15,128 nt of DNA from a bacterium (GTDB taxonomy: Bacteria > CSSED10-310 > JAJRTK01): NCBI GenBank assembly GCA_024278345.1, contig JAJRTK010000002.1, forward strand, positions 1 through 15,128, given 5' to 3'. The translations under genes were made by a program, and so were the position numbers. Below are positions 143 through 13,636 of the stretch, one piece after another; position 1 is the first letter of the stretch; each line of letters opens with the position of its first letter. Under the pieces are notes generated by a model. That model saw only the letters and a program-made list of their open reading frames with translations. It had not been told where the DNA came from and did not search any database.

Positions 143-340
143 AAGCCCTGCCAGGGGCCGGATGCCGAGCAGAGCGAGACGCGGCCCACAGGGCCGCAGC
201 CGGAGTCCCCGAACGACCGCCGAGTAACGCGAGGCGTTACCCTTCGAGTCACGCAAACGTGACCCGCCGAGCGGAGCGCGGCGTTGTCCGAGGCCAAGTT
301 TTTTCCCCGGCGACCATTGTCCCGCTTTGCGTGGATACCC
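143..340 (+). mobile_element. Alpha element copy 1, right part (MITE-like)
   Basis: This is the right-hand part of an alpha element whose left part is separated from it by the gamma copy at 1-142. It begins with AAGCCCTGCCAGGGG, found inside alpha copy 2 at 478-492, and ends with a terminal repeat at 319-340 (GTCCCGCTTTGCGTGGATAC plus CC). Internal hairpins include GCGGCCC-ACA-GGGCCGC at 181-197 and GTAACGC-GAG-GCGTTAC at 224-240. The second matches the hairpin of copy 3 at 2184-2198, with a T-A pair in place of C-G. Small open frames run through it but are repeat by-products. Alpha copy 2 begins only 6 bases after its end. Confidence 0.75.
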
Positions 341-346
341 GGAAGA

Positions 347-612
347 GGGTATCCACCTAAGCCGGGACACGCAACAAAACCCAAAAAAGACGCGGAGCGT
401 ACAAAAACGTGGGCTGGGCTCCCGTTGCCCTTCGTTGCAACGGGAAGATGAGCTCGCTCCCTGGTGGGTGCAGGGTGAAGCCCTGCCAGGGGATGGAATC
501 CCCGGACGACCTACGGGTAACGCGCGGCGTGACCCGCCAAGCGACAGCGAGGCGTTGCCCGAACGCTTTCGATTCCACAGTCCCGGGAATGTCCCGCCTT
601 GCGTGGATACCC
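347..612 (+). mobile_element. Alpha element copy 2 (MITE-like)
   Basis: This 266-bp non-coding element has 22-bp imperfect inverted ends at 347-368 (GGGTATCCACCTAAGCCGGG plus AC) and 591-612 (starting GTCCCGCCTTGCGTGGATAC). The flanks CCGGAAGA (339-346) and CTGGAAGA (613-620) form an 8-bp direct repeat with one mismatch, read as a target-site duplication. Inside are an A-rich leader, ACGCGGAGCGTACAAA and hairpins: CCCGTTGC/GCAACGGG at 421-444, GCAGGGT-GAA-GCCCTGC at 470-486, GGGGAT-GGA-ATCCCC at 489-503, and a 9-bp stem with one mismatch at 515-535. It ends 29 bases from the stop codon of the GT4 gene. No transposase is present, so mobility must have been supplied from elsewhere. Confidence 0.8.
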
Positions 613-641
613 CTGGAAGACATGTCAGTTCAATATTCGGG

Positions 642-1847
642 TTACAGTACGGAGCGGTAAATCTTCATGATTTCCTCATAGTACGCCTCTGAAGTAAATT
701 GGGAGGCCGCTTTCTCATAGCCCGTTCGTCCCATCTCCAGTGCCTTCGTGGGGTGGTTTTTCATCCATGTAATCCGGTTGCGGAGGGCCGCCGCATCCTC
801 TGGAGCGACCAGAAATCCATCGCTCCCATCATCCAAGACTTCCGGGATTCCGCCAATACGGCTCGCAATGACCGGTCGTCCGAATTGGAATGCTTCAAGG
901 ACGGCAAGCCCAAAAGTTTCGTAACAGATGGAAGGAAGAACGACGCATCGGCATCCCCGAATGAGTTCGGCCAGTTCCCGATCCTGTCGAAAACCCAAGA
1001 GCGTCACGTGGTCGAGTTTTCGCCTTTCGATTTCCCTTGTCAGTGCCTGGCGGTCGTTTCCGTCGCCAACGATCAACAGTTGACACTCCGTCAATGGCTC
1101 AATGGCATCGAGCAGCGTAAAGACTCCTTTGTATCGCTCAAGCCGGCCTACATAAAGGAAATACTCGCCCACAGCCTGGCTGGGAGGTTCTGATGGCATG
1201 TCCACGAAGTTGTGGATGGTGGAGATTTTATGCTCAGGAACGCCATAAGAAATCATCTTTTTTCGCACAAAATCGCTGACAGCGATAAAGTGGTCGATAG
1301 AATCAAGGGACCCCAGAAAGCGGGAAATATAAGATTCTGCCACACTCAAGCATGTTCTCAGGAAAGAATTCCTGTTGCACCTTCGTGGTAAAGCACGCCA
1401 AAATGCATGACCCTGGCATGCTTCACAGTTTTGACCGTTGGATCGCAAACCATAGACAGGACAGATCAGCTTGTATTCATGCAGCGTCTGGACAATAGGT
1501 ATGCCAGCTTTCTTCATCCTCGGGAGAATCGATGCCGTCAGCCTTCCGTAATAGATATGCAAGTGTCCCAGCTTTGGATTCTGGTCACGAATCAAGCGGT
1601 CAATAGCCAGCGCCGCCCGCCGAGAATAGAGATAACGGATAGGGTCCATTGGCCTCGGGCGTTCGAAATTCGCGCCCTTGGGAAAGTAAGCAGACCACTT
1701 CGTCGCTGTCGCCCCCTCGCTCGCCGCTGTGAATGGAATTACCTCGTGACCGTGTTTTCTAAGAATACTAATCGTGTCAAAGAAAACGCGGTCCGAGCCT
1801 CCCCTCAACCGATAGTCCTGGGAAATCTGGAGTATCTTGAGTTTCAT
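642..1847 (-). CDS. Glycosyltransferase family 4 (GT-B fold)
   Basis: The 401-residue protein probably moves a sugar from an activated donor to a growing lipid-linked glycan at the cytoplasmic membrane face. The N-terminal acceptor domain has the glycine loop RLRGGSDRVF (13-22). The C-terminal donor domain has LYVGRLERYKGV (231-242), LLIVGDGND and the E-x7-E motif YETFGLAVLEAF, with E310 and E318, typical of retaining GT4 enzymes. A cysteine cluster (C141, C144, C157) sits in the linker region, as in some polysaccharide-locus GT4 proteins. Length is normal for the family. The ATG has a weak upstream GGGA. The gene stands alone on the minus strand, with alpha elements near both ends. The sugar and linkage cannot be read from sequence. 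Confidence 0.95.
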   Translation of the reverse strand: MKLKILQISQDYRLRGGSDRVFFDTISILRKHGHEVIPFTAASEGATATKWSAYFPKGANFERPRPMDPIRYLYSRRAALAIDRLIRDQNPKLGHLHIYYGRLTASILPRMKKAGIPIVQTLHEYKLICPVYGLRSNGQNCEACQGHAFWRALPRRCNRNSFLRTCLSVAESYISRFLGSLDSIDHFIAVSDFVRKKMISYGVPEHKISTIHNFVDMPSEPPSQAVGEYFLYVGRLERYKGVFTLLDAIEPLTECQLLIVGDGNDRQALTREIERRKLDHVTLLGFRQDRELAELIRGCRCVVLPSICYETFGLAVLEAFQFGRPVIASRIGGIPEVLDDGSDGFLVAPEDAAALRNRITWMKNHPTKALEMGRTGYEKAASQFTSEAYYEEIMKIYRSVL

Positions 1848-2034
1848 GGAATCCCGTGTTGCATGTGATTACCAGCCCGCCCAGGCCCAGAATAGCAGGC
1901 CATCCCCTGTCCCGCCTGGCGGGTGCCACAAGATCAGATGCAGAGGACGATTGTCTTTGTGCAAGTTTGGTTCCGCTGGCGTTGGCGGCAATTCGCCAGC
2001 CGCCACTCGCTATTCACGGCCCGTCAATCGGACC
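1848..2034. other. Non-coding spacer upstream of the GT4 gene
   Basis: This 187-base stretch precedes the minus-strand GT4 gene and should hold its promoter, but I could not identify a convincing -35/-10 pair. It contains the perfect palindrome CCCGCC-T-GGCGGG at 1911-1923, and a TGGCG/CGCCA stem at about 1983-1998. Long plus-strand open frames start here but run straight through the alpha element, and I regard them as spurious. Its last 8 bases, ATCGGACC (2027-2034), are the left target duplication of alpha copy 3. Confidence 0.6.
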
Positions 2035-2245
2035 GGGTATCCACGCAAGGCGGGACAAAACGAGAAACAAAGAGACAGGCGCGAAGCGCCCCACCACGTG
2101 GGTCCAGGGAGCGAGCTCCCTGGTGGGTGCAGGGCGACGCCCTGCCAGGGGACGGGGGACGGAGTCCCCGAACGACCGCCGAGCAACGCGAGGCGTTGGT
2201 ACGACGCAAGATAATACCGAATTGTCCCGCCTTACGCGGATACCC
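2035..2245 (+). mobile_element. Alpha element copy 3, intact, with exact 8-bp target duplication
   Basis: This 211-bp element is the clearest alpha copy. Its 22-bp inverted ends (2035-2056, starting GGGTATCCACGCAAGGCGGG, and 2224-2245) match at 20 of 22 positions. ATCGGACC occurs exactly at 2027-2034 and 2246-2253, a perfect 8-bp target-site duplication. The interior is a row of hairpins: GGCGC-GAA-GCGCC (2078-2090), CCAGGGAGC-GA-GCTCCCTGG (2104-2123), GCAGGGC-GAC-GCCCTGC (2129-2145), GGGGAC-GGA-GTCCCC (2155-2169) and CAACGC-GAG-GCGTTG (2184-2198). It encodes no recognisable protein. Several bacterial IS families make 8-bp duplications (for example ISL3, IS66, IS256), so the mobilising enzyme cannot be named. 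Confidence 0.9.
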
Positions 2246-2271
2246 ATCGGACCCAATGCCCGCAAGGCCCC

Positions 2272-2775
2272 TTACGATCCACTTTTGCGTGGATACTCAG
2301 GAACGGCGCTCCGGGGCGACGGCACGATGGATGATTCAACAAGGAGCCTACCGCGGAGGAACCCATCCCCGGAAAACGGCGGCAGGTTTAGGGCGCGAAA
2401 CGGTACGGCCCCCGACATGTGCGGTCTTTCGCGACCCGATATAAGGCTGATTATCGAGTACTCCCGCCCATCAGCAGCAACAGGCTCTTGTGTATTTGCA
2501 CCCCGTCTGGCCGGCAGCTTGTATGTTGTGGTAACGCTGACGGGTCGCCGAGGGTGTAAGAGAACCGCCAGCGGGGCAACATCGATGGGTGCATATATAA
2601 GGCTGCCAAGCAGAGACACGCCCGATTGTGGATCAACCACAAGAAGTCCCCGACTGTCAACAGCCGGAACAAGAAATGACCGTGTCCCGGCCTTGATTGC
2701 TAGGGGTATCCACTTACCATGAAAGTACATGGTTAAATCCATCTTCGACGGCGTGGTTATGGCGCTCTGCGCCAT
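2272..2775 (-). CDS. Uncertain hypothetical ORF, possibly a relic
   Basis: An open frame of 167 codons runs on the minus strand. I do not recognise the product. Residues around 15-75 read plausibly as folded protein (for example SFLVPAVDSRGLLVVDPQSG and IYAPIDVAPLAVLLH), while the remainder is rich in Pro, Arg and Ser like translated non-coding DNA. Alpha-like end fragments lie within it at 2285-2298 (TTGCGTGGATACTC) and 2705-2716 (GGGTATCCACTT), so it may be partly element-derived. The second fragment falls at the HGKWIPL residues. No clear ribosome binding site was found. It may be a decayed gene or chance. Confidence 0.25.
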   Translation of the reverse strand: MAQSAITTPSKMDLTMYFHGKWIPLAIKAGTRSFLVPAVDSRGLLVVDPQSGVSLLGSLIYAPIDVAPLAVLLHPRRPVSVTTTYKLPARRGANTQEPVAADGREYSIISLISGRERPHMSGAVPFRALNLPPFSGDGFLRGRLLVESSIVPSPRSAVPEYPRKSGS

Positions 2776-2804
2776 TCACTTTCATCTTCCGGGGTGTGGT
2801 CACC

Positions 2805-3021
2805 GGGGTCATGCTCGTTATGGCGGGACAAAGCCGATGGTATCAAGGGTAGGTTGCCTCCTGCCGCGACGCAATGGAAGCTGGTCGATTTTCGAGAGCA
2901 AAGTCTCAAAAAAGTCGGGAAACGAGTGTTGGAAAAAGCGAGAGGCTGGGGTTGTGCCATCGGATGCGCGACAGTTCAAAGTGATGAATCACCGTTTGTC
3001 CCGCCTTACCTGGATGGCCCC
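2805..3021 (+). repeat. Decayed alpha-like inverted-repeat element
   Basis: Imperfect inverted ends bound this 217-base stretch. The left end reads GGGGTCATGCTCGTTATGGC then GGGACAAA, and the reverse complement of the right end reads GGGGCCATCCAGGTAAGGC then GGGACAAA. The inner GGCGGGACAAA is the same as in alpha copy 3, but the outer GGGTATCC is lost. The flanking octamers (TGGTCACC and TGTTGGCC) agree at only 5 of 8 positions, so no duplication can be claimed. The interior lacks the conserved hairpin core. I read it as an old or separate relative of the alpha elements. Confidence 0.4.
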
Positions 3022-3526
3022 TGTTGGCCTTCGTTATGTCGTGCGCTGCCTATTCCAAGTTGCTTATCCCGGAGGACGGTTCTTGAGATCGGTATCAGTG
3101 ATTTCTTCCGGCCCCAAGGGAGTTGCGCGGTGCCATTGTTGTCGCACTGAGGGAGAGATGGTTTGCCGGTTCGCTGGGCGAAAGGCTGGTCGGAGGGAGA
3201 TTCCGGGGGCATGAAGAACGGGGCAAGGGCGATGAAAGGCGAGTGGCGGCGGACGGATTGCCGCCGCCGCGAGCGGAAGTCAACTCAAAGAGAAAAAGTG
3301 TCTTCTCCTCAGTGCGGCGTTTAGGTGTGGCACGACTAAAGATTGCGGGGCCTGCTGCCTTCTTTCCCTTTGTTGGCGGTGCCAAGGGGCACGTCGGCCA
3401 ATGACCCGTATCGTGGTAATATCAAGGATCTGTGTCGGATCTGGTCGATTCGCTTGATGAGCGCAGGCCTGGCGGTGGACCAAGGGGTTCGCTTCCCGAT
3501 GGCGCTTCTTGTACGGGAGAGGACTC
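3022..3526. other. Non-coding spacer upstream of the sulfotransferase
   Basis: I see no convincing gene in these 505 bases. A GC-rich hairpin, GGCGGCGG (3245-3252) and CCGCCGCC (3261-3268) with an 8-base loop, is the only strong structure. It has no following T-run, so it is not an obvious terminator. A TGGCACG at about 3328 recalls the sigma-54 -24 box, but the GC of the -12 box is at the wrong distance. The last bases carry the ribosome binding site of the sulfotransferase. Confidence 0.5.
3515..3523 (+). promoter_or_regulatory. Ribosome binding site that fixes the sulfotransferase start
   Basis: GGGAGAGGA lies just upstream of a GTG at 3527 in the sulfotransferase frame, with 7 bases between GGGAG and the GTG. 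The frame also opens with a TTG at 3509, but nothing comparable precedes it. GTG 3527 is therefore preferred. Confidence 0.6.
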
Positions 3527-4522
3527 GTGGTCGCTCAGTTGAACCGAAGTTATGTTAAAGCCCGTCCGGGCAAGGCTATTTCTCGTTTGCTTAGCTACGC
3601 GCTTTTTGAGGGGCGTCCGCTCACGACTCGAGGTCGCTGGATCAATCCGTTCGTCTTTGGGTTATTTGAAATCGAAAGGCGGTTGCCTCAGCTCAGAAAG
3701 GTCGTTCAGCCGATTTTTATCATTGGCGCGGGGAGAAGCGGCACGACGGTTCTGGGGCTTCTCTTGTCGATGCATCGCGACGTAGGGTTCCTCAATGAGC
3801 CAAAGGCCATGTGGCATGCCATCCATCCAGGTGGGGATGTGATCGGTAACTACTGCAAGGAGCGCGGTCGCCATCGATTCGATTCCTCGGACGTGACCGA
3901 AGAGGTTCGACGGAATGCGCATCGGCTGTATGGCGCCTACCTTTTTGCCACGAGGTCCAAGCGTGTGTTGGACAAAAGCCCCGAACTTGTGTTTCGCGTA
4001 CCTTTTGTTCGAGAGATTTTTCCGGACGCGAAGTTTCTCTTCTTGACTCGGAATGGCTGGGATACTTGTCATTCCATTGTGGGATGGTCCAAGCGTAAGG
4101 GAGTCGATGTCGATGGAGAGCGTCACGATTGGTGGGGAGTTGATAGGCAAAAGTGGCACTTGATGGTGGAGGAACTGGTGAAGCCGGATCCTGGGTTTCA
4201 AGCTATCTGGCCGGAGATCGAGCGCTTCACGGATCACCAGAAGATGTCTCTCGTCGAATGGATCGTGACGATGCGCGAAGGCCTGAAGCAGCGGGATCGC
4301 TATCCGAAGGACGTCCTTTTGCTCCGCTACGAAGACTTGTTGTCAAGTCCAAGGAGGAAGCTTGACGAATTGCTGGAGTTTTTGGGTCTTTCTCCAGATG
4401 ATTGCTTTTTTCGTTATTCGCAAGAGACGATTTCGCCGCCTCGCGCTCATCCTCGAATCTCTGTTCCACCGATTCTATTGGATTTATTCAATAGAACCAT
4501 GTTCGACCTAGGATACAGTTGA
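3527..4522 (+). CDS. PAPS-dependent sulfotransferase
   Basis: The 331-residue protein belongs to the sulfotransferase superfamily, which transfers sulfate from PAPS to hydroxyl or amino groups. Numbered from GTG 3527, the 5'-phosphosulfate loop is FIIGAGRSGTTVLGLLLSMH (64-83). The 3'-phosphate motif is FLFLTRNGWDTCHSI, with R175 and S183. The late motif LLRYEDLLSSP (265-275) is also characteristic. Length fits the Sulfotransfer_3-type group. There is no signal peptide or membrane span, so it should act in the cytoplasm or at the membrane surface. Its place among polysaccharide genes suggests a sulfated glycan, but the acceptor is inference. A delta repeat starts two bases after the stop. Confidence 0.92.
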   Translation: MVAQLNRSYVKARPGKAISRLLSYALFEGRPLTTRGRWINPFVFGLFEIERRLPQLRKVVQPIFIIGAGRSGTTVLGLLLSMHRDVGFLNEPKAMWHAIHPGGDVIGNYCKERGRHRFDSSDVTEEVRRNAHRLYGAYLFATRSKRVLDKSPELVFRVPFVREIFPDAKFLFLTRNGWDTCHSIVGWSKRKGVDVDGERHDWWGVDRQKWHLMVEELVKPDPGFQAIWPEIERFTDHQKMSLVEWIVTMREGLKQRDRYPKDVLLLRYEDLLSSPRRKLDELLEFLGLSPDDCFFRYSQETISPPRAHPRISVPPILLDLFNRTMFDLGYS

Positions 4523-4523
4523 T

Positions 4524-4653
4524 CCGGAAATTTCATCAAAAACCTACTGCGACGTCTGCTCCATCGGCGTCGCCTTCGGGTGTTCTCGCTAGCGGTCGGC
4601 CCCCACCGGCGTTTTCGTCGGTCGGAGATCCGGAGGCGCAGTACAAGATTACG
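4524..4653 (+). repeat. Delta repeat, single-ended copy
   Basis: This segment resembles 8518-8614. Shared blocks include TTTCATCAAAA near the outer end, TACTGCGACGTCTG against TTGCTGCGGCGTCTG, and TTCGTCGGTCGGAGATCCGG against TTCGTCGGTCGGACATCTGG. This copy has roughly 35 extra bases in the middle. Its outer end, CCGGAAATTTCATCAA, matches the inverted ends of the full delta element, but I find no partner end in 4640-4815, so it looks truncated. It begins two bases after the sulfotransferase stop. Open frames on the minus strand here encode Arg-rich peptides like those from the other copy, and are judged non-coding. Confidence 0.55.
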
Positions 4654-4815
4654 TCTCCGAACGCGAGAGTTGGCTCTGCCGCCCACTGATGGACGAGGCC
4701 GGCGCGGTCATGGTCATCGGGCGAAGCGGGGACTCTGTTGCCAAGTGCGGGCTTCCGTGGTACCAATGAACCCTCTTTATTCGCTGAGGTCATTTTTCGT
4801 GTGCTTTGGCCTTGA
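4654..4815. other. Non-coding spacer before wzz
   Basis: No gene, hairpin terminator or clear promoter is seen. CTGATGGACGAGGCCGGCG at about 4686 resembles the sequence beside the two beta elements (9153-9163 and 13149-13170). This could mark a decayed beta-type insertion or a relic of the same target gene; the match is too short to decide. Together with the delta repeat this makes a gene-free stretch of 293 bases. Confidence 0.4.
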
Positions 4816-6141
4816 ATGGGGGCTATCCGAGCGCTGGCCCCAGAGTTGGAATCGGATGTCGTTTGGACGGAGAATTGCCTGTTGCGTACTCAAGGTGGCC
4901 AAGATCAATTCAAAGCCCAACACAATGAGCTGGATATCGTTCAGATGGTCCGCCGCCTCTGGGTGTACCGTCGATCAATCACCGCAGTGACGGTACTCAG
5001 CGTTGTTCTCAGCGCTTGGTTGGTGTTCATGCTCCCAAGAAGCTATCGGGCTGAAGCCACGTTGCTTATCGTGCCGGCGAAGTTGGGGAGTGAGCGGATC
5101 GCCCGCCTGGATAAGTCCACAGTCCAGAGCTACGTGACCATCGCGCAGAACAAGGAGCTTATTCTCGAGATCTTCCAGGATATCAAGGCAGAATTGGCTC
5201 CGTGGATTACGGAGTACGAGCAACTTCTGCAAGTGATCTTGGTGGAACACGTCCGCGACACGAACCTCATACGCCTTGCTGTCGTGCTGGGAGATTCGTC
5301 ACTTGCTGCAAAGATCGCGAATCGCCTTGCCCAAAAGTGCGTCGATCTGTCACGGCGGCTGACGAGCTATCAAGCGTCGGATTCCAAGGAGTTCCTCGAA
5401 ACCCAAGTTGAGGAATCTTTGCGGCAGCTTGAGGAGGCCAGAGCCGTTTTGGTCGCTTTTGAACGGGAAGCCAGGCTTCCGATTCTCCAAAGAAAGCTAC
5501 AGATTCAACTTGATCTAAAGGCGAAACTCGAGCAGCTATCGGTCCAGAAGGAACGTGAGCTTCTTGGTCAGACATCTCGCCTGAAGGAGCTTCAGGTTCA
5601 ACTGGCAGGCCAGAGCAAAACTCTTCGGCTTTCGCGTGCGATTGTCGAGAACCCTGCTTTTGAGCAATTGCTAGCCAATGCAACGGGGGTTGATCCATCT
5701 GCATTGATTGGCCTTACGATGGAGGCTGAAGTTGTCAACTCTGTGCATGATGTCGTCGAAAAGGACTTCGTCAGGACGACAGTGAACGTCGTAAACCTCA
5801 AGGCCAACTACGAGAAGTTAATAGCCCAGTTGAAGCAGGTGGAAGATAATCTTGAGACGTTGGTGCAGCAATCGATAGAAAGAGAGAATGAACATGCTCG
5901 CTTGAAGCAGAATCTCGCACTTGCCATGGAGACTCATCGCACGATGAATCGGGAGTACCAGCAAGCGAAGCTTCTTGTCATGGGACGCTCCGAGGAACTT
6001 CGGCTGGTTGAGCGGGCTGTTCCCTCGATGAAGCCAGTTGCCCCCAAACGCAAGCTCATTGTGGGATTTGCTGCGTTGGGAGGTTTTTTCTTCTCGCTCT
6101 GTGCTGCGCTGGTTTTCGATTTGATTCGGCAGGTCGATTGA
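4816..6141 (+). CDS. Wzz-like polysaccharide co-polymerase (chain-length determinant)
   Basis: The 441-residue inner-membrane protein has the family layout. A first membrane segment lies at about 54-73 and is followed by PRSYRAEATLLI. A large periplasmic region is predicted to be helical and coiled-coil rich (about 180-260 and 325-400). Near the C-terminus the Pro-containing VPSMKPVAPKRK precedes a second membrane segment at about 417-435. Such proteins set glycan chain length with a Wzy polymerase. No Walker motifs or tyrosine-rich tail follow, so the BY-kinase part of Wzc-type proteins is absent. The ATG at 4816 lacks a good ribosome binding site. An in-frame TTG nearer TM1 (about 4881, with CGGAG upstream) is possible. 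wzy follows after 102 bases, and the two are probably co-transcribed. Confidence 0.88.
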   Translation: MGAIRALAPELESDVVWTENCLLRTQGGQDQFKAQHNELDIVQMVRRLWVYRRSITAVTVLSVVLSAWLVFMLPRSYRAEATLLIVPAKLGSERIARLDKSTVQSYVTIAQNKELILEIFQDIKAELAPWITEYEQLLQVILVEHVRDTNLIRLAVVLGDSSLAAKIANRLAQKCVDLSRRLTSYQASDSKEFLETQVEESLRQLEEARAVLVAFEREARLPILQRKLQIQLDLKAKLEQLSVQKERELLGQTSRLKELQVQLAGQSKTLRLSRAIVENPAFEQLLANATGVDPSALIGLTMEAEVVNSVHDVVEKDFVRTTVNVVNLKANYEKLIAQLKQVEDNLETLVQQSIERENEHARLKQNLALAMETHRTMNREYQQAKLLVMGRSEELRLVERAVPSMKPVAPKRKLIVGFAALGGFFFSLCAALVFDLIRQVD

Positions 6142-6243
6142 TTGGCCAATTCGCCGCGTTTTTCCCTTTGTGCTTCCTGTTTTGAACATTTCGAGTTGCC
6201 AGTGCCGACTTCTCTCCACGCGTGAAGTGAGGTTTCGTGCATC

Positions 6244-7812
6244 ATGCCCCCAGTCACTCTGGATAGAACCGACAGTGGAGAAGCGGGGCTTCCTCGGCAA
6301 TTCGGGATGTTTCTCGTTTTGGGGTTGTCGCTTTTCGTTGCTTTCGCTTCAGTGGTTCTGAACGAGCTTGTCGTTGCCGCGGGTGTAGGTCTCTTCGTGG
6401 TGGGGGCGTGTCTTCTCCGCCCCGATCTTTTCGTCCTTGGGTTGTTGGCGTACGTCCCGTTTGAAGAGTTTTTGCTCAAATGGGTTCCTCGCTCGGTCTA
6501 TGGCTTGTTTCGATTTGGCCCCGAGTTATTGATCCTGATTCTATTCTCCGTGAAGCTTTCGCAGCGTGTTCTTGGTTCAGGTCGTTGGAAATCGAGCCGC
6601 TTGGATCTTCCGGTCTTTTGCTTTCTTTCCGTGGTTTTCTTGTCCTCGTTGGTGAACGATGTGCCCGCGGTCGTTGCCGTGCTCGGGATGAAGAACCTGC
6701 TTCGGTACTTGGTTCTTGCCTATCTCGTCATGCACATGGGCATAAGCAAGTTATTCGTGCGACGTGTAGTTCACCTGATTCTTGCCGTGGCGGCGATACA
6801 GACAATAATCTGCGTTATTCAATGGATCATTGGGCCGGCGGCGTTCCGTTTTCTCAATCCCCCCGACGTAGTGGTCGGAGGAACGACGATTCGGCGCATG
6901 GCGAACCTCGTGACTTCGGGCGGCAAGGTCACGGGAACGATGGCGCGTTACAACAACCTCGGGGCATTCATGGCTTTCTTTGCGCTCATCGCTGAGGGGC
7001 TGTGGTATCGCACGCGGAATCCTGCATATAAGCGAATTTTGCCCCTCTTGTTTGTCGCGCTCCTCTTATCATTTTCGAGGATGAGTTGGCTGGGGGTTTA
7101 CGGGGGCATCTGTCTCATCCTCTTGCTGGAGGGAAAACAGAAGCTGGTCTTCTATCTCATTGTGCCAGCATTGGCGACGTTGTTTCTGCTCAATCTCACG
7201 AGTCCTGTGGATTGGCGGAAGGGCGAGGGGAGCGACTCACTTCGTGCCCGCTACCTCGGTATGATCAGTAGTGGTTACGTTCAGAAGTCATTGGAGCATG
7301 ACCGCCTCTATGCGTTGTTCGTCACCGCTCCCACGATCCTCGAAAAATACCCTCTGTTTGGAATCGGACCCGGTACGATTGGTTCGGAGGTCACCGGCGG
7401 GGGTACGACCATGAAAGGGATGTACCCGCAGTTCTCTCATGCCCGTTGGCTGGGTTTGCCGGAGGCTCAACTCCAATACACTGGAGACTGTGGGTGGGTC
7501 GCAATACTAGCACAAGTGGGTTTATTGGGTTTTCTGGCCTTCGCGTGGATCATCGTGCGGATGATAGCTGCGGCCTGGACCTGTTTCCGCTGGTCAGACG
7601 ATGCATTTATCAGGGGGCTAGGATTGGGAACCATCGCAGCCCTAAGCGCAGTAGTTTTCCAAAATATGTTTAGCTTTAATTTTACGTACCGTTCCATGAG
7701 TATTTATTTTTGGGTATTCGGAGCCTTTGCGTGCGAGTTGGCCCGGAGTACTGCCGGGGCGCAAAGGAATTCCGAGATGGCCCACGTTTCCCACGAAGTT
7801 ACCGATTTCTGA
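6244..7812 (+). CDS. Wzy-like O-antigen polymerase / O-antigen ligase family protein
   Basis: The 522-residue protein is strongly hydrophobic, with about ten or more membrane segments beginning at residues 21-58. The Wzy_C-type signature is visible: GTMARYNNLGAFMAFF (231-246), a membrane stretch ending LLSFSRMSWLGVYGG (274-288), a long extracytoplasmic loop at about 317-412, and FGIGPGTIG (372-380) within it. Members either join lipid-linked repeat units or ligate glycan to an acceptor. With Wzz upstream and an initiating phosphotransferase downstream, polymerase is the better reading. The ATG has GTGAGG about 11 bases upstream. The last 14 bases overlap the 3' end of the convergent methyltransferase gene. 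Confidence 0.9.
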   Translation: MPPVTLDRTDSGEAGLPRQFGMFLVLGLSLFVAFASVVLNELVVAAGVGLFVVGACLLRPDLFVLGLLAYVPFEEFLLKWVPRSVYGLFRFGPELLILILFSVKLSQRVLGSGRWKSSRLDLPVFCFLSVVFLSSLVNDVPAVVAVLGMKNLLRYLVLAYLVMHMGISKLFVRRVVHLILAVAAIQTIICVIQWIIGPAAFRFLNPPDVVVGGTTIRRMANLVTSGGKVTGTMARYNNLGAFMAFFALIAEGLWYRTRNPAYKRILPLLFVALLLSFSRMSWLGVYGGICLILLLEGKQKLVFYLIVPALATLFLLNLTSPVDWRKGEGSDSLRARYLGMISSGYVQKSLEHDRLYALFVTAPTILEKYPLFGIGPGTIGSEVTGGGTTMKGMYPQFSHARWLGLPEAQLQYTGDCGWVAILAQVGLLGFLAFAWIIVRMIAAAWTCFRWSDDAFIRGLGLGTIAALSAVVFQNMFSFNFTYRSMSIYFWVFGAFACELARSTAGAQRNSEMAHVSHEVTDF

Positions 7813-8491
7813 TTTCAAGGATTCGTTGCTGATCCTGGGCGTCGTCACCAGATTCGTGTCCGAAAGACCGGAGCGTCCCCAAATCGATCACTTGGAGTCC
7901 ATGCGCCGCACAGACGTTTTCGTAGAAGCTCATTGTGCGCCAAACAACCGGGAAGTCCAGCCAGCTTTTAGTTTGCGTGCGACCGATGTTTACATTTGCA
8001 AAAAAGCGGCCGTCTGTTGAGAGGTCTGACTTCACTATACCGAGAGTATCATTCAAAATAGAGTCATTCATGTGCATCAGCACTGAGAAAGCCCAAATGT
8101 AGTCGAAATCCTGTTCGAATGATGCTTGAGCAATATTATCGAAACAGAAAAGTTGTGGATGTTTTTCTGAAACTCCACATTCCAAGGCTTCCAATTGTGC
8201 TTCTTCGATGACTTGCTTTCTTGAGTCAAAACCAAAATAATGTTTTTTCTCCAAATACTCAATGATTGGAATGCCGCCTCTTAAAGTTCCGCACCCAATG
8301 TCCAGCACGTAATGCTGTGGTTTGAGGCCGACGCTCTTGAGGAATCCGATCTGGAAGTTTCTTTTCATTTCCCAGCTTTTTGCGGCGCCGACCATTGAGT
8401 GCCTTCGTTCTGCCTCTGACAGGAACAACTCGTGAATTCGCCGTATCACACTGCTGAGAATTCGTTTTGTCTTCTTTAGGGGTGTATTCAT
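7799..8491 (-). CDS. Class I SAM-dependent methyltransferase
   Basis: The 230-residue protein has motif I as VLDIGCGTLRGG (62-73), an acidic residue after strand 2 in YFGFDSRKQ (D89), and the motif IV/V region DFDYIWAFSVLMHM (128-141) followed by GRFFANVNIG. It should methylate a small molecule or sugar; the substrate cannot be read. In-frame ATGs at 8590 and 8530 lie inside the delta repeat and give an Arg-rich leader, so ATG 8491 is chosen, although no good ribosome binding site is visible. The gene is AT-rich: 8041-8220 is about 39% GC by my count, against about 77% for 14101-14160. This suggests separate acquisition. It converges on wzy with a 14-bp overlap. Confidence 0.88.
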   Translation of the reverse strand: MNTPLKKTKRILSSVIRRIHELFLSEAERRHSMVGAAKSWEMKRNFQIGFLKSVGLKPQHYVLDIGCGTLRGGIPIIEYLEKKHYFGFDSRKQVIEEAQLEALECGVSEKHPQLFCFDNIAQASFEQDFDYIWAFSVLMHMNDSILNDTLGIVKSDLSTDGRFFANVNIGRTQTKSWLDFPVVWRTMSFYENVCAAHGLQVIDLGTLRSFGHESGDDAQDQQRILEIRNR

Positions 8492-8514
8492 GAATCTGAT
8501 ACTACCATAATTCT

Positions 8515-8728
8515 GGCCAGGAACTTTCATCAAAAGCTTGCTGCGGCGTCTGACCCATTGTCTCCAGCGGCGTCTTCGTCGGTCGGACATCTGGAGGCGA
8601 AATGCGGGACTACGGCGACCGTGTCCGCCTGTTCACCTTTGGTGTATCTCCGCTGCGCTCCAGTTCTCATCCTTGGTGGAAACGCCCGCAGACTGCCTCG
8701 CGACGATCCTTGATGAGAGTTCCGGGTC
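8515..8728 (-). mobile_element. Delta element with inverted ends
   Basis: This 214-base stretch has imperfect inverted ends. The left end is GGCCAGGAACTTTCATCAA (8515-8533). The reverse complement of the right end (8710-8728) is GACCCGGAACTCTCATCAA, matching 15 of 19 positions. Its left part is repeated at 4524-4653. I find no convincing target duplication in the flanks. The interior lacks the A-rich leader and ordered hairpins of the alpha and beta groups. It covers the false N-terminal extension of the methyltransferase frame. The gamma target duplication begins one base after its right end. Mobility is inferred only from the ends and the second copy. Confidence 0.5.
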
Positions 8729-8738
8729 TGAGGGTGAA

Positions 8739-8893
8739 GGGACCTATTCAGATCCAGTTGACAACACCACCGCTGGGGCGGGCCTCCTTCCCGGCTCCGT
8801 GCAGCCCGGAGGGCGCTACACCGGCAAGATGCCGGTGCCACCGTTTCGGCGAAGAAAATTGTAAAGCAAAAACACGATAATTTGATAGGTCCC
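8739..8893 (-). mobile_element. Gamma element, complete copy with 8-bp target duplication
   Basis: This element of about 155 bp has GGGACCTATTCAGATCC at its left end. The reverse complement of its right end is GGGACCTATCAAATTATC: nine exact positions, then imperfect. GAGGGTGA occurs exactly at 8730-8737 and 8894-8901 and is read as the target-site duplication, with one extra A at 8738. The interior has GCCC-GGA-GGGC (about 8805-8815) and CACCGGCA-AGA-TGCCGGTG (about 8820-8838). The body repeats bases 1-142 in the opposite orientation. It lacks the alpha/beta core, so it is a separate group that shares only the duplication length and hairpin style. Confidence 0.8.
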
Positions 8894-8965
8894 GAGGGTG
8901 AGTAATCGCTCGGCCAGCCGAATGTTACGTTGTAGCCTCGCTGCCGGAATTTGTTTCGCTGAGTC

Positions 8966-9162
8966 GGCTTGGTCCATCGTTTCGGCCACCCAGTGAATTA
9001 CGGGCCTGGCGCCCAGGCCTCCGGCCCCGGACCCCGGCGGAGGCTCCGCCTCCGGACCTTCGCCAGGAGCGCTGCTCCTGGACCTCGCCAGGAAGCTAGC
9101 TCCCTGGACCCCTCTTTGTACGCGACGCGTTTTTCGAGAGGGTGGCCGAAACGATGGACGAG
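8966..9162 (-). mobile_element. Beta element copy 1 (MITE-like) with 8-bp target duplication
   Basis: This 197-bp element has a perfect 20-bp inverted repeat, GTCCATCGTTTCGGCCACCC, at 8972-8991 and, inverted, 9140-9159. The outermost bases are less regular. GCTGAGTC is repeated exactly at 8958-8965 and 9163-9170. The left 26 bases align without gaps with the left end of beta copy 2, supporting the boundary. Read on the minus strand, the interior has CGAAAAACGCGTCGCG, TACAAAGA, GGGTCCAGGGA and hairpins at 9063-9081, 9038-9054 and 9003-9019. This is the same order as beta copy 2 read on the plus strand. The right end is 2-3 bases shorter than expected, so that edge is approximate. Confidence 0.82.
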
Positions 9163-9492
9163 GCTGAGTCTAACAGCTTCCGGTATTCCTTCGGAATGCT
9201 TTGCCTCGGGCATCAAGATCCGCTTCGCTCCTTTCTTTTGGGGGCGATTTGACACGAATTGCGCCACGCCAACGGATGGATGAGGGAAACTTGTCAAGTT
9301 TCATGATGCAGGGGAGATCGCCATCTGCTCGTAGAGTGTAGGATTGTGGGTCTGATATTTCAAACTCAAGGTCCGAGAAGACGCAGGGTCGTAGGTGGAG
9401 GACAAATAGGGCTGGAGAAGTGGGAAAGGTCGGCCATTTTGAAATCTTTTGTCCGGTAAGGAGGTTTTTTTGCGGGAGAGGCGGCATTGGAG
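9163..9492. other. Spacer without a convincing gene
   Basis: In these 330 bases I find no recognisable gene, RNA or terminator. A strong ribosome-binding-like site TAAGGAGGT lies at 9457-9465. The TTG at 9470 after it opens only an 8-codon frame, whose TGA overlaps the ATG of the small ORF at 9493. Minus-strand frames here run into beta copy 1 and show no family I know. Confidence 0.45.
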
Positions 9493-9789
9493 ATGAGACC
9501 GAAAAAGCTGCTAGCGTTCAGGGCGCGGTTGGCACTGGCCGCAATGCAGTTTCCCCAGTTTTTTTTGGGCACGTATTGCACCCGCGTGGGTGCTGGCCGT
9601 CGTGTGCCCGATGCTCCTCCATCCCGTTGCCTTGAAATCGAGGTACAGCAAGGGGCTGAAAGGATAGCTGCTCATGGGCGGGAAAGCTTGACAATTGTAG
9701 CTGCCTTCGGTAATTGCAAGAGGCTGATGGCGTCTGCTCCGATGGGCAGAGCCTTGAACCGCTGTTTGACAGGGTGTTCCATCAAATAG
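9493..9789 (+). CDS. Possible small protein upstream of the phosphotransferase
   Basis: A 98-codon frame starts at ATG 9493 and ends with TAG at 9787-9789. That TAG overlaps the AGGAGG ribosome binding site of the next gene, an arrangement that fits translational coupling. The N-terminus, MRPKKLLAFRARLALAAM, is basic then hydrophobic, like a weak signal or anchor. The rest is Arg- and Ala-rich with several Cys and matches no family I recognise. A TTGACA at 9688-9693 lies within the frame and might instead be part of a promoter. It may be a real small gene, a relic or chance. Confidence 0.25.
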   Translation: MRPKKLLAFRARLALAAMQFPQFFLGTYCTRVGAGRRVPDAPPSRCLEIEVQQGAERIAAHGRESLTIVAAFGNCKRLMASAPMGRALNRCLTGCSIK

Positions 9790-9793
9790 GAGG
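9788..9793 (+). promoter_or_regulatory. Ribosome binding site for the phosphotransferase
   Basis: AGGAGG sits five bases before GTG 9799, an ideal sequence and spacing. It decides in favour of the GTG start over internal ATGs, and so for a long cytoplasmic N-terminus. It overlaps the TAG of the small ORF at 9493-9789. Confidence 0.85.
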
Positions 9794-9798
9794 CACAA

Positions 9799-11538
9799 GT
9801 GTCTGGCCCTGCAAAGAAATTGGATATTGAGCCGAAAGGTGACCAAGATCTTTGCAGCGGTGATAAGGTCATACGGATTCAGGCTGAAGGAGGCCAGATA
9901 TCGCCGGCAGATCGGGGTGGCAGCGCTCATCAGAGACCCAAGCTGATTCTCCTTTCTCCTCATCGTGGATCTCTTGGTATTCTTAGAAAAGTCGCAAGGG
10001 AAACCCGAGATCGAGTTTTGGGCAAAGTAATTCGCGATACGATGGAACACGTGACGGAGCCTCAAAGCGAGGAAACCCGACAGCTCGTTGGTCGAAGCCT
10101 AAGGCTTCTCCGAACGGGTCTGCTTTCGGTGGACGTCCTTCTTGTTGTCTTGTCGTTGGCTGGTGCGTTTTGGCTTCGCGTTTTTACGAGGTTTTTGGAC
10201 CGTGCCAAGGACGTCCACGTTGGCCCGAGCCATTTTTGGATTCTGGCAGGTTTCACGATCCTTATCCTTTACCTTTACACGATGCACGGCCTGTATCGCG
10301 CCAGCAACCTTTCCCGCCGCTACTACCAGGCCGTTTCGATCTTCAAAAGCGTGAGCCTGGCGGCTGCGATTCTCCTGACCATCACTTATTTGACGAAGAC
10401 CCGTGCTTTCGTGGAACGGCGTGCGATCATCGTGCTTTCGTGGGGATTGCTCATCTCCACTGAATGCCTGGTTCGTTGCTATCTCGTCCAGCCGTTGGTT
10501 CGGCGATTTCTCAAGCCTCTCCGGGTTCTCGTTCTTGGTGTGGGCGATTGCGCACGGCGGATCGCTAGCCGGTTCACGACGATGGTGTCCCCCGAAAGCT
10601 TCGAGCTTGTCGGCTTGCTGGCGACATCTGATGGCTCGAGGGCGGATTCGGTTCACGGGGTTCCCGTGCTAGGGGGGCTGGAAAACCTGCGGGAAATCGT
10701 CGAGCGCTATGGTATTGACGAAGTCTTCATCGCGGATCTCTCTCTGGAGCCGGAGGGCACCCTGGAGATGATCTCTTTGTGCCGCGGGATGGACGTGGGG
10801 ATCAGGGTTGCGAGCGGCTTGTTCGAGCCCATCTTGCCGCAGATTGAGGCCGAAACGCTGGACACTATTCCCCTGGTTCGGTTGCGGCGTCGGCCTTTTG
10901 TGCGGGTTGCTGCTGTTGCCAAAAGGATCCTTGACCTCTTGGGGGCAGGCATTGGACTTTTCTTGACGTCTCCCCTGTTCTTGCTGTTTGCCATTTGGAT
11001 TAAGCTCAGTTCAAAAGGGCCGGTTTTCTTCGTTCAGGAACGGGTTGGACAGCGCGGCGCCCCTTTCAACATGCTGAAGTTCCGAACGATGAAGGCCAAT
11101 GCCGACAGTTCGGTCCATCGCGACTATGCATCACGGTTTATTAATGGTGACGATGTTGCCCAGACTTGTGTCCGCACGAAAAGCAAGGTCAACAAGTTGG
11201 TCCACGACGACCGCGTGACTCGCGTCGGTCGGTTTCTCCGGCGTTTTTCCCTGGATGAGCTTCCCCAGCTCATCAATGTTCTCAAGGGGGAGATGAGCCT
11301 TGTCGGACCGCGACCTCCAATCGACTACGAAGTTGAATTGTACCGGGATTGGCACAAGAAGAGACTGGACGTTGTGCCAGGTCTGACGGGACTCTGGCAA
11401 GTGAGTGGCCGCAACCGTCTTTCTTTCCAGGAGATGGTTCTTCTCGATCTCTATTACGCTGAGAATTGGTCCGTAGCGATGGATCTGAAGATACTCCTTC
11501 GCACGATACCGGCCGTCTTCGACAAGGCGACCTACTGA
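9799..11538 (+). CDS. Exopolysaccharide polyprenyl glycosylphosphotransferase (initiating enzyme)
   Basis: The 579-residue inner-membrane enzyme should transfer a sugar-1-phosphate from a nucleotide sugar to undecaprenyl phosphate, the first step of repeat-unit assembly. It has about four membrane segments at 105-235 and a Rossmann-like domain from [16 protein letters not shown] (241-256). The catalytic domain starts at about 371 with a membrane-entering helix (377-401). Visible motifs are [39 protein letters not shown] (484-503) with D486 and E487, and [12 protein letters not shown] (527-538). This is the WbaP/WcaJ (PF02397) family. The roughly 100 residues before the first membrane segment are longer than usual and of unknown role. 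The sugar cannot be assigned. Confidence 0.95.
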
Positions 11539-11773
11539 AGAATCGAGCGGCGGGATGCCCCAAGGGCACATTTGCTCTCGACCGCATTTTCCTCTTGGGT
11601 TGGGTTCCGCAACCGTCGGCGTCCATCCGGTCGCCGCCGTTTGCCCTTCATCCCCCTTGGTCCTGCTGATGAAATCCCACAAATGAACCACGGTCGATAT
11701 GGTGTCCCATGGACCCTTAGGAGTCGAGAAGGGGCTTTGTAGGGATTGCCCAGATGGGAAAAACTTGGAGTTC
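11539..11773. other. Convergent spacer between phosphotransferase and aminotransferase
   Basis: The two flanking genes end facing each other across these 235 bases. No hairpin followed by a T-run is obvious, so no terminator is called. Frames on both strands are extensions or shadows. I see no repeat element here. Confidence 0.5.
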
Positions 11774-12880
11774 CTAGGCGGTGAGGAGAGTCCGGAGCTG
11801 CCCCGTAACGAATGCGATCTGTTGTTTCGTTAATTCGGGGTAGAGCGGCAGACTGAGGACCCGCCTGCACGACGCTTCGGTGACCGGGAATTCACCTTCG
11901 GAGTAGCCCAGATAGCGGAAAGCGGGTTGCAAGTGAAGTGGGAGCGCGTAGTGAATACCAGTGCCAATGCCCAGTGCTTCCAGTTTTCCGTGAATCTGAT
12001 CCCGGTTGTCGAGTTCGATGACCATGACGTGGTGGACCGATTCGCAGTCGTTCGAGGTCCGCAAGAGCTGAATTTCGGGCAGATCAGCCAGGAGTCGCTG
12101 ATACAGAGCAACGTGTCTTCTCCGATACCGGTTCCACTGGTCCAGGTGAGGCAATTTGTCCCGCAAGATCGCCGCCTGGATTTCGTCCATCCGATGGTTG
12201 AAACCGCGTTGGACGTGGAGGTACTTGCTGGAACGTCCGCAATCCCGGAGCAAGCGGACCTGTTGCGCAAGTTCGGCGTCGTTGGTGGTTACGCAACCGG
12301 CTTCGCCGTAGGCACCGAGGTTCTTGCTCGGGTAGAAGCTGAAGATGGCCATCTTCCCGAGTCCACCCACGCGTTTACCACGGTACCGGGCTCCATGGGC
12401 TTGTGCCGCATCTTCGAGAACCGGCAAATCGTGCCGATGGGCGATTTCCAGGATGGGGTTCATATCCGCTGGATGCCCGTAGAGATGCACGGGAAGGAGT
12501 ACCCGGGTCTTCGCGGTGATGGCATCTTCCAAAGCCGCCGGATCCATGGTTTTTGTGGCCGGATCGACATCGACGAAGACCGGAGTCGCGCCGACGCTGG
12601 CAATGGCTTCTCCCGTGGCATAGAAGGTGTCCGGAACCGTGATCACCTCCGAGCCGGTTTCCACCCCGAGGGCAATCAAGGAGAGCCGGAGAGCATCGGT
12701 TCCGTTGGATACGCAAACCGCATGCTCAACCTCGCAATAAGAGGCAAATTCCTCCTCAAAACTCCTGGTCTCCGGGCCAAGAACAAAGATTGTACTTTCC
12801 ACCACCCGCCGAATCGCAGCATCGATTTCGCTTGCCATCGTGAGATATTGAGCCTTCAAGTTGACAAGTGGGATGTTCAC
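11774..12880 (-). CDS. DegT/DnrJ/EryC1/StrS-family sugar aminotransferase
   Basis: The 368-residue PLP enzyme should aminate a nucleotide-linked keto-sugar to give an amino sugar for the glycan. Numbered from GTG 12880: NGTDALRLSL (59-68) in the cofactor region, LEDAAQAHGA (155-164) with D157 facing the PLP ring nitrogen, and FSFYPSKNLGAYGEAG (180-195), where K186 is the predicted Schiff-base lysine. C-terminal substrate-site motifs such as GFNHRMDEIQAAIL and GIGTGIHYALPLHLQPAF are present. The start is placed at GTG 12880 because GAGG lies 9 bases upstream. A TTG at 12895 would add five residues. It may make a 3-amino-dideoxyhexose, as FdtB/QdtB relatives do, but this is uncertain. It stands alone on the minus strand. 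Confidence 0.94.
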   Translation of the reverse strand: MNIPLVNLKAQYLTMASEIDAAIRRVVESTIFVLGPETRSFEEEFASYCEVEHAVCVSNGTDALRLSLIALGVETGSEVITVPDTFYATGEAIASVGATPVFVDVDPATKTMDPAALEDAITAKTRVLLPVHLYGHPADMNPILEIAHRHDLPVLEDAAQAHGARYRGKRVGGLGKMAIFSFYPSKNLGAYGEAGCVTTNDAELAQQVRLLRDCGRSSKYLHVQRGFNHRMDEIQAAILRDKLPHLDQWNRYRRRHVALYQRLLADLPEIQLLRTSNDCESVHHVMVIELDNRDQIHGKLEALGIGTGIHYALPLHLQPAFRYLGYSEGEFPVTEASCRRVLSLPLYPELTKQQIAFVTGQLRTLLTA

Positions 12881-12916
12881 GGGTGTGTTCCTCAAAAGGG
12901 GGTTGTGTTCTGTGAG

Positions 12917-13636
12917 TCAAGCAACCCTGGGACTTTGGGATGTTTGCCCAGAAAAGTCGTCATGGGGGCAACCCAGTGGGAATCCAGTAGATTCGAGAAG
13001 TCGCATTCTCAAGGTCGATAGGCTCTGCTGAGCCCCATGGGAGGCCATCACCACTCGGTCGAGGTGGCTGAGGCGCAGAAACTGGTTCAACGGTCGGATT
13101 CCCGCCTGACTCATCCGCCCGAAGCATAACTGGGCGGCTACTACGAGCTGATGGACGAAAGCGAGGCCTCGGTCATGGTACCGGCCACCCGAAAAAAGCG
13201 CGCAGCGCACAAAGATGTGGGTCCAGGGATCTGGCTCCCTGGCGTGGGTCTGGGAGCGGCGCTCCCAGCGGAGGTGCCGGAACCGGAGCGGAGCGTAAGC
13301 GCAGCGGAGATAATCGCCGTAGGCGATATCCGGAGCCTCCGCCGGGTTCCAGGGCTGGAAGCCCCGGGGCGGCGTCTGAAATCTGAACCGTGGCCGGTAC
13401 CATGACCGAGGCCGAAAGCGATTCCCTGAGGACTTTCGAGGAAATCGGCCAATCGGGCCGCTGTCCAGCGACTGCTTGTGTGCTTGCCAGTGTTGCAGGG
13501 TGGTTCGGGCTACGCTCGTTTCTCGTTTGAACTGGCGCATGGGAAGTGCCTTGTCTTCGGGCGGACTCCAACTGGATGAGCTTTGCCGCAGCCTTCTTGC
13601 GAGCAACGCCATTGCCTCCCCCGGCTCCACTTTCAA
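12917..13636 (-). pseudogene. DUF6399-like (transposase-like) gene fragment, interrupted
   Basis: Read from 13636, the N-terminal part (RQFKRETSVARTTLQHWQAH, then LDSGPI) resembles the start of proteins I recall as DUF6399, which look transposase-like. A one-base shift near 13449 leads to ADFLESPQGIAF. There the frame is broken by beta copy 2 (13165-13413). Beyond it FVHQLVVAAQLCFGRMSQAG continues, then LNQFLRLSHLDRVVMASHGA. Removing the element and one target copy joins these as ESPQGIAFVHQLVVAAQL. Similarity seems to end near 12989, so most of the normally much longer protein is missing. The gene is dead by insertion, frameshift and truncation. Family assignment rests on remembered sequence pattern. 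Confidence 0.7.
13165..13413 (+). mobile_element. Beta element copy 2 (MITE-like) inserted in a gene
   Basis: This 249-bp element has perfect 24-bp inverted ends at 13165-13188 (beginning GGCCTCGGTCATGGTACCGG) and 13390-13413. GAAAGCGA is repeated exactly at 13157-13164 and 13414-13421. It splits the DUF6399-like reading frame, and excising it with one duplicate restores the coding sequence, which proves insertion. The interior starts GAAAAAAGCGCGCAGCGCAC, then AAAGATGTGGGTCCAGGGA. Hairpins follow at 13223-13242 (TCCCTGG stem), CTGGGAGC-GGC-GCTCCCAG (13250-13268) and ATCGCC-GTA-GGCGAT (13313-13327). No protein is encoded. Confidence 0.92.

Follow-up and report, generated by a model that had tools for sequence, protein, structure and literature searches.

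The locus raises the question of how small repeats with unrelated ends come to share one and the same interior. The window, i.e., the whole stretch of 15,128 nucleotides that was analysed, is contig C507 of a draft genome (6.06 Mb, 550 contigs, 87.9% complete), which has only seven relatives of the same phylum among the genomes searched. The genes of the window form a polysaccharide cluster (glycosyltransferases, sulfotransferase, Wzz-like protein, O-antigen ligase-like protein, sugar transferase and DegT aminotransferase), and small repeats occupy the gaps between them. As a rule, it is the ends that define a MITE family, and the interior is seen as a decaying passenger.

Small elements in the window

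The elements were assigned to the types A, B and D according to their terminal inverted repeats (TIRs). The following features were found:

1–142: element D, partial copy with the TIR GGGACCTATCAGATCC, without core; its right end adjoins A1
143–340, plus strand: A1, partial type A element without the core part, adjoining the partial D; contains module M1 (about 163–200), module M4 (about 242–265) and the A right end (317–340)
347–612, plus strand: A2, complete type A element, module M3 in place of the left arm of core hairpin 1; target-site duplication 339–346 / 613–620 (CCGGAAGA / CTGGAAGA, one mismatch)
2035–2245, plus strand: A3, complete type A element with the ends GGGTATCCACGCAAGGCGGGACA; exact 8-bp duplication ATCGGACC
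2078–2123, plus strand: core in A3, leader hairpin GGCGCGAAGCGCC, then GTGGGTCCAGGGAGCGAGCTCCCTGG (2098–2123)
8739–8893: element D, complete, without core; duplication GAGGGTGA with one extra base at the left
about 8966–9165, minus strand: B1, type B element (Bb) with the core in minus orientation; flanked by the 8-bp direct repeat GCTGAGTC (8958–8965 and 9163–9170)
9088–9113, minus strand: core hairpin 1 in B1, AGGGGTCCAGGGAGCTAGCTTCCTGG
13165–13413, plus strand: B2, type B element (Ba) with perfect 24-bp TIRs; exact 8-bp duplication GAAAGCGA
13187–13242, plus strand: core in B2, A-rich leader, GCGCGCAGCGC hairpin, ACAAAGAT and GTGGGTCCAGGGATCTGGCTCCCTGG (13217–13242)
about 13284–13330: hairpin module M2 in B2

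A2, A3, B1 and B2 are complete small transposable elements with TIRs and an 8-bp duplication; for B1 and D, the flanking repeats line up when one end is moved by a few bases. Positions 1–134 form an inverted repeat with 8748–8881 at 96% identity (D family, 154 bp). The interior of A2 retains the leader, ACAAA, GTGGG and the right arm GCTCCCTGG, and its M3 reads CTGGGCTCCCGTTGCCCTTCGTTGCAACGGGAAGATGA. In addition, an E-like repeat (TACCATGAAAGTACATGG ... GGGGTGTGG; for type E see below) is located at 2703–2830 within what appears to be a split A end (GGGTATCCAC and TTATGGCGGGACA), an arrangement also seen in L158, L170, L209 and L212.

Elements with A and B ends share an ordered interior

The interior order common to A and B elements is an A-rich leader, a small hairpin with a GNA loop (GCGCGCAGCGC, ACGCGTAGCGT, ACGCGGAGCGT and others), ACAAA, GTGGGTCCAGGGAGCnnGCTCCCTGG and more hairpins. 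Local alignment of A3 with B2 gave a score of 24.0, compared to a mean of 8.9 and a maximum of 13.0 in 200 dinucleotide shuffles. The scores for A3 and B1 (20.0; shuffle maximum 13.0) and for A2 and B2 (17.5; shuffle maximum 12.5) were also above all shuffles, and that for A2 and B1 was weak (12.5; shuffle maximum 11.0). The core pattern GTGGGTCCAGGGANNNNNNTCCCTGG with up to two mismatches occurs at 146 and 128, together about 274, genome sites, and the reversed control gave none. The proposal of the first-pass annotation that A2, A3 and both of its "beta" elements (B1 and B2) have parts of one ordered interior in common is thus confirmed. The shared stretch includes the non-palindromic sequence from ACAAA to GTGGGTCC and is therefore more than a set of generic GC-rich hairpins, the trivial explanation against which the similarity had to be checked. 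Element D does not have this stretch in common with A and B.

The identity common to A and B is strongest over about 45 bp, and the two types agree in the order of the core and in its distance from the left end. Past hairpin 1, A and B elements consist of different hairpin chains: among 102 instances, 37 combine an A end with the right half "a" and 39 a B end with the right half "b". Single hairpin units (GACGCGCAGCGTCAAAAAAA, TTCGAGTCACGCAAACGTGACCC and GGTAACGCGCGGCGTGACCCGCT) are in places tandemly expanded inside elements (L163 near 13900 on the minus strand, L166:16151-16517, L165:5366-5600).

Ends and target-site duplications

Type A ends have the sequence GGGTATCCACGCAAGGCGGGACA, type B ends GGCCTCGGTCATGGTACCGGCCAC or GGCCTCGTCCATCGTTTCGGCCACC and type D ends GGGACCTATCAGATCC. 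A third end type around the core, E (CTCATGG...TTTCACGG, then TAAC), was found at 24 places. Within each end family the TIR sequence is conserved. Alignments of A with B ends are at the level of shuffled sequences (p 0.4–0.7), save one A variant end, GGCCATCCACGTAAGG, which is marginally similar to the Bb and Bc ends (p 0.03–0.04, uncorrected); homology of A and B ends was accordingly rejected. The Ba, Bb and Bc ends belong to one family (z 8–10). The assumption that the two groups have unrelated ends therefore holds for A versus B; the ends of the two "beta" elements are variants of a single family. Some B ends (e.g., L189:9048, minus strand; L164:3585; L215:2351, minus strand) contain module M6 (GGTGGTGCCTTCGGCAGCTCTCGCTGTCGCTCGGACCC), inserted midway within the terminal repeat, at both ends, which results in a longer TIR with outermost and innermost sequences that are still of type B.

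A de novo scan without predefined ends identified 458 short inverted-repeat pairs in 1.18 Mb, the part of the genome that all our element statistics cover and which was sampled partly from contigs known to contain hits. Exact flanking repeats in this set peak solely at 8 bp (11 cases compared to 0–3 at other lengths), and all 11 cases belong to A, B or D. Exact 8-bp duplications flank eight of the 18 complete A, seven of the 12 Ba and eight of the 16 D elements; the chance rate for an 8-bp duplication with at most one mismatch is 0.0007. This shows that A, B and D elements create an 8-bp target-site duplication on insertion. None of the complete elements of these types carries a transposase gene, and most have a length of 142–295 bp. 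With a length under about 500 bp, TIRs and a target-site duplication of fixed size, they have the properties of MITEs.

Probable exchange of ends and interiors

The core is found between ends of three types (A, B and E). Nineteen of the 24 E instances are without core and most of these are 70–127 bp long; the five with core have a length of 218–334 bp. Four of these five have 100–131 bp in common with A elements at 86–98% identity. In L165, 98% identity over 100 bp connects the E copy with an A element that has unrelated ends. A second line of evidence comes from M3 (CTGGGATCCCGTTGCCCTTCGTTGCAACGGGAAGATGA), a rare 38-bp core variant that replaces the left arm of hairpin 1. Thirteen A-ended elements, A2 among them, and the B-ended element L130 have M3 at this position. 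L130 is flanked by the repeat GTCCCAAC, and only single-base differences separate it from the versions with A ends. No other element combines M3 with a b right half and a B end that could be fully typed; L215, L119 and possibly L201 are supporting cases, but are degenerate, nested or cut. Modules M1 and M2 are likewise not confined to one type and occur in interiors of A and of B elements (in the window M1 in A1 and M2 in B2). Elements are also nested in each other, for instance an A element within the M3-bearing B element L119.

Thus, all four combinations occur: A with the standard core, A with M3, B with the standard core and B with M3. Without exchange, this would be difficult to account for. 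One of the two options originally proposed, namely that ends are swapped while the core is kept, is supported by these data: the core is found on A, B and E ends, M3 on A and B ends, and E ends with and without the cassette. Exchange is uncommon, as is shown by the tight link between left end and right half (A-a 37, B-b 39), which agree in 76 of the 80 instances in which both could be typed as A or B.

We think it probable that the elements are MITE-like and non-autonomous and that a hairpin cassette has been exchanged between their end families. A transposase acting in trans would recognise only the ends and move any interior, which would be passenger DNA; this part of the model is based on the anatomy of the elements and on what is known about MITEs rather than on an enzyme found here. 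Rather than having originated independently, cassettes and single hairpin modules would have moved from one family to another through recombination or template switching, with nested insertions and the hairpins as promoting factors. Hairpin-rich interiors with a common 45-bp core would be natural sites for such events between copies. The shared interior offers a natural system to study the origin of new ends or new cargo in non-autonomous elements and a possible role of hairpins in the exchange. It is also a warning, because classifying short repeats by the likeness of their interiors would merge unrelated transposon families.

Alternative explanations

The linkage of left end and right half would also be expected if A and B elements derived from one ancestral MITE, with an inherited interior and ends that diverged while adapting to different transposases, without any exchange. 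The core has the same order and the same position from the left end in both types, A, B and D ends all start with GG and share the 8-bp duplication, and the marginal similarity of the one A variant end to Bb and Bc points in the same direction. However, M3 in the same slot of A and B elements, E ends with and without the cassette and the 98% identity over 100 bp between an E and an A element all need exchange. Moreover, the cores are near-identical, yet ends of the same age would have lost all similarity. We therefore regard descent without exchange as unlikely, although plain descent from one ancestor could account for part of the similarity between A and B. About as unlikely is that the cassette is kept because it acts as a portable terminator of transcription or as an insulator and so allows insertions to be tolerated. 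In 58 of the 102 cores the leader hairpin lies beside an A-run (at least six A in 10), compared to about one expected from mononucleotide shuffles; read on the minus strand, this is a hairpin followed by a T-run, which resembles an intrinsic terminator, and the terminator-like SPRITE repeats of pneumococcus are a precedent (PMC3049150). But on the side that would be terminated, 24 genes point toward the core and 24 away from it, as judged from simple ORF calls and with many elements at contig ends. By the same calls, convergent placement is not significantly enriched (10 convergent and 8 divergent compared to 31 and 57 in the background; p 0.12). The combination of hairpin and A-run is thus real, but since the neighbouring genes show no matching orientation, a role for the host is not supported; the reading as a host terminator was not adopted, and a benefit of the cassette for the host is not evident.

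The other option put forward at the outset, a long structured RNA or single-stranded DNA fold under selection with the outer repeats as a closing stem, appears very improbable, even compared to the terminator. Stems are less variable than unpaired positions (0.055 versus 0.162 in B, 0.046 versus 0.097 in A), compensatory change is present in 28 cells, and the hairpins have GNA triloops, which are typical of very stable mini-hairpins. Mismatched pairs are G-T in 31 and A-C in 21 cases, which does not clearly indicate an RNA function of one strand. The scan of the window with Rfam 15 yielded no match above the gathering score, and the elements have no orientation bias to genes. The idea that the outer stem is constrained only by pairing does not agree with the data either: the ends are sequence-conserved TIRs flanked by 8-bp duplications, and in seven of the 18 complete A elements the two arms mismatch at three or more positions. 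Recurrent variants of the A left end exist, such as CCACCTAAGCC. Judged by arm mismatches, compensatory counts and wobble asymmetry, the structured-RNA reading is weak, and for the ends it is largely refuted.

Distribution in other genomes

The core pattern was searched in 386 genomes and gave only five single hits outside the source genome, each with two mismatches. DNA searches of 60 genomes found no copies except a 51-bp hairpin match in one genome (G055), GTDB r220 contigs contained no exact full-core match (the genome itself left out), and the core was not found in viral contigs. The bare hairpin with its linker occurs elsewhere, at 63 sites in a Ruminococcus MAG, nine in a Rubritepida MAG and three in an Asaia MAG, with none in the controls; the Ruminococcus and Acetobacteraceae copies examined are without flanking TIRs. 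In these loci (L231-L246) the hairpin GTGGGTCCAGGGAGCTTGCTCCCTGG follows a GCGCGTAAGCGC hairpin, often with more GGGTCC-linked hairpins after it. Thus, the same design with the GTGGGTCCAGGGAGCTTGCTCCCTGG hairpin is found in distant phyla, with 63 copies in the 2.1-Mb Ruminococcus MAG (RUG14638) and few in the Acetobacteraceae MAGs. The hairpin and linker in these distant MAGs may reflect convergence or an old mobile module.

A more speculative possibility, to which we give somewhat less credence than to descent without exchange, is that the cassette is a selfish unit, a parasite of mini-transposons that jumps between A, B and E chassis by hairpin-mediated template switching. If this were true, the hairpin and GGGTCC linker at the 63 Ruminococcus sites and in Acetobacteraceae would represent horizontal spread and not convergence.

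Search for a mobilising transposase

A transposase with the ends of these elements was not found among the IS1595, DDE_Tnp_1 and IS256 families searched in this fragmented assembly, whose 550 contigs often break at the repeats. Profile searches gave two relics ending with GGCTCTATATGCGATCC for PF12762 (IS1595), one fragment for PF01609 and none for PF00872. The de novo scan of 1.18 Mb contained no long TIR pairs with 8-bp duplications that could be an autonomous partner, and in the first 0.91 Mb of the sample, all ORFs with several copies were reading frames through the elements. The IS1595-family relics (L198:1438-1836 and L199:1400-1775) end with GGCTCTATATGCGATCCAGGG, which has a weak likeness to D ends (p 0.15).

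Comparison with known small repeats

The statement in the first-pass annotation that no described family has this design was too strong. In BOX elements of Streptococcus suis, the end pairs boxA/boxC and boxE/boxF both surround the same boxB modules, and the BOX repeats of S. suis and S. pneumoniae are small and modular, with nested insertions among repeat families (PMC3049150). BOX of S. suis is the closest precedent for an identical interior between different ends, as judged by architecture from the published description. In contrast to BOX, the elements reported here have TIRs and 8-bp duplications, contain a chain of GC-rich hairpins with GNA loops and occur in an isolated lineage that lacks close relatives in the set of genomes searched. 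Small repeats of this kind are already known, but swapping of ends and interiors has rarely been described.

Bacterial MITEs are shorter than 500 bp, have TIRs and target-site duplications, lack a transposase gene and reach high copy numbers (PMC10969869). Our elements share these traits, but a classical MITE family has its own interior, whereas here unrelated ends share one. The Tn3-derived TIMEs have constant 38-bp Tn3-type ends, 5–6 bp duplications and varying cargo (PMC4133298). They are likewise non-autonomous and their ends mobilise different interiors; here the same cargo is additionally found with varying ends. SPRITE of S. pneumoniae (PMC3049150) is also a dispersed repeat with a terminator-like hairpin and a T-tract, but here the motif is part of a longer mobile element and shows no bias to the 3′ ends of genes.

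REP/REPIN sequences with their RAYT transposases (PMC3733652, PMC3116915) are similar in that they are short, GC-rich hairpins in high copy number and in that the source genome encodes a RAYT-like protein. They differ in that the core hairpin here follows GGGTCC and not a GTAG/CGTC tag, and that the elements have TIRs and 8-bp duplications. The REP tag (GTAG or CGTC) is absent beside the palindrome, and GTGGGTCC precedes the core hairpins in the aligned copies. The genome contains one RAYT-like Y1 transposase gene (C390, L247), which as a protein scores 30.1 bits with Pfam Y1_Tnp, above the cut-off. This gene (L247:1012-1737, G000 C390) has two copies of a GGGCGGGTTCGGAACCCGCCCCT palindrome inside its reading frame, and D-like ends are located nearby on both sides.
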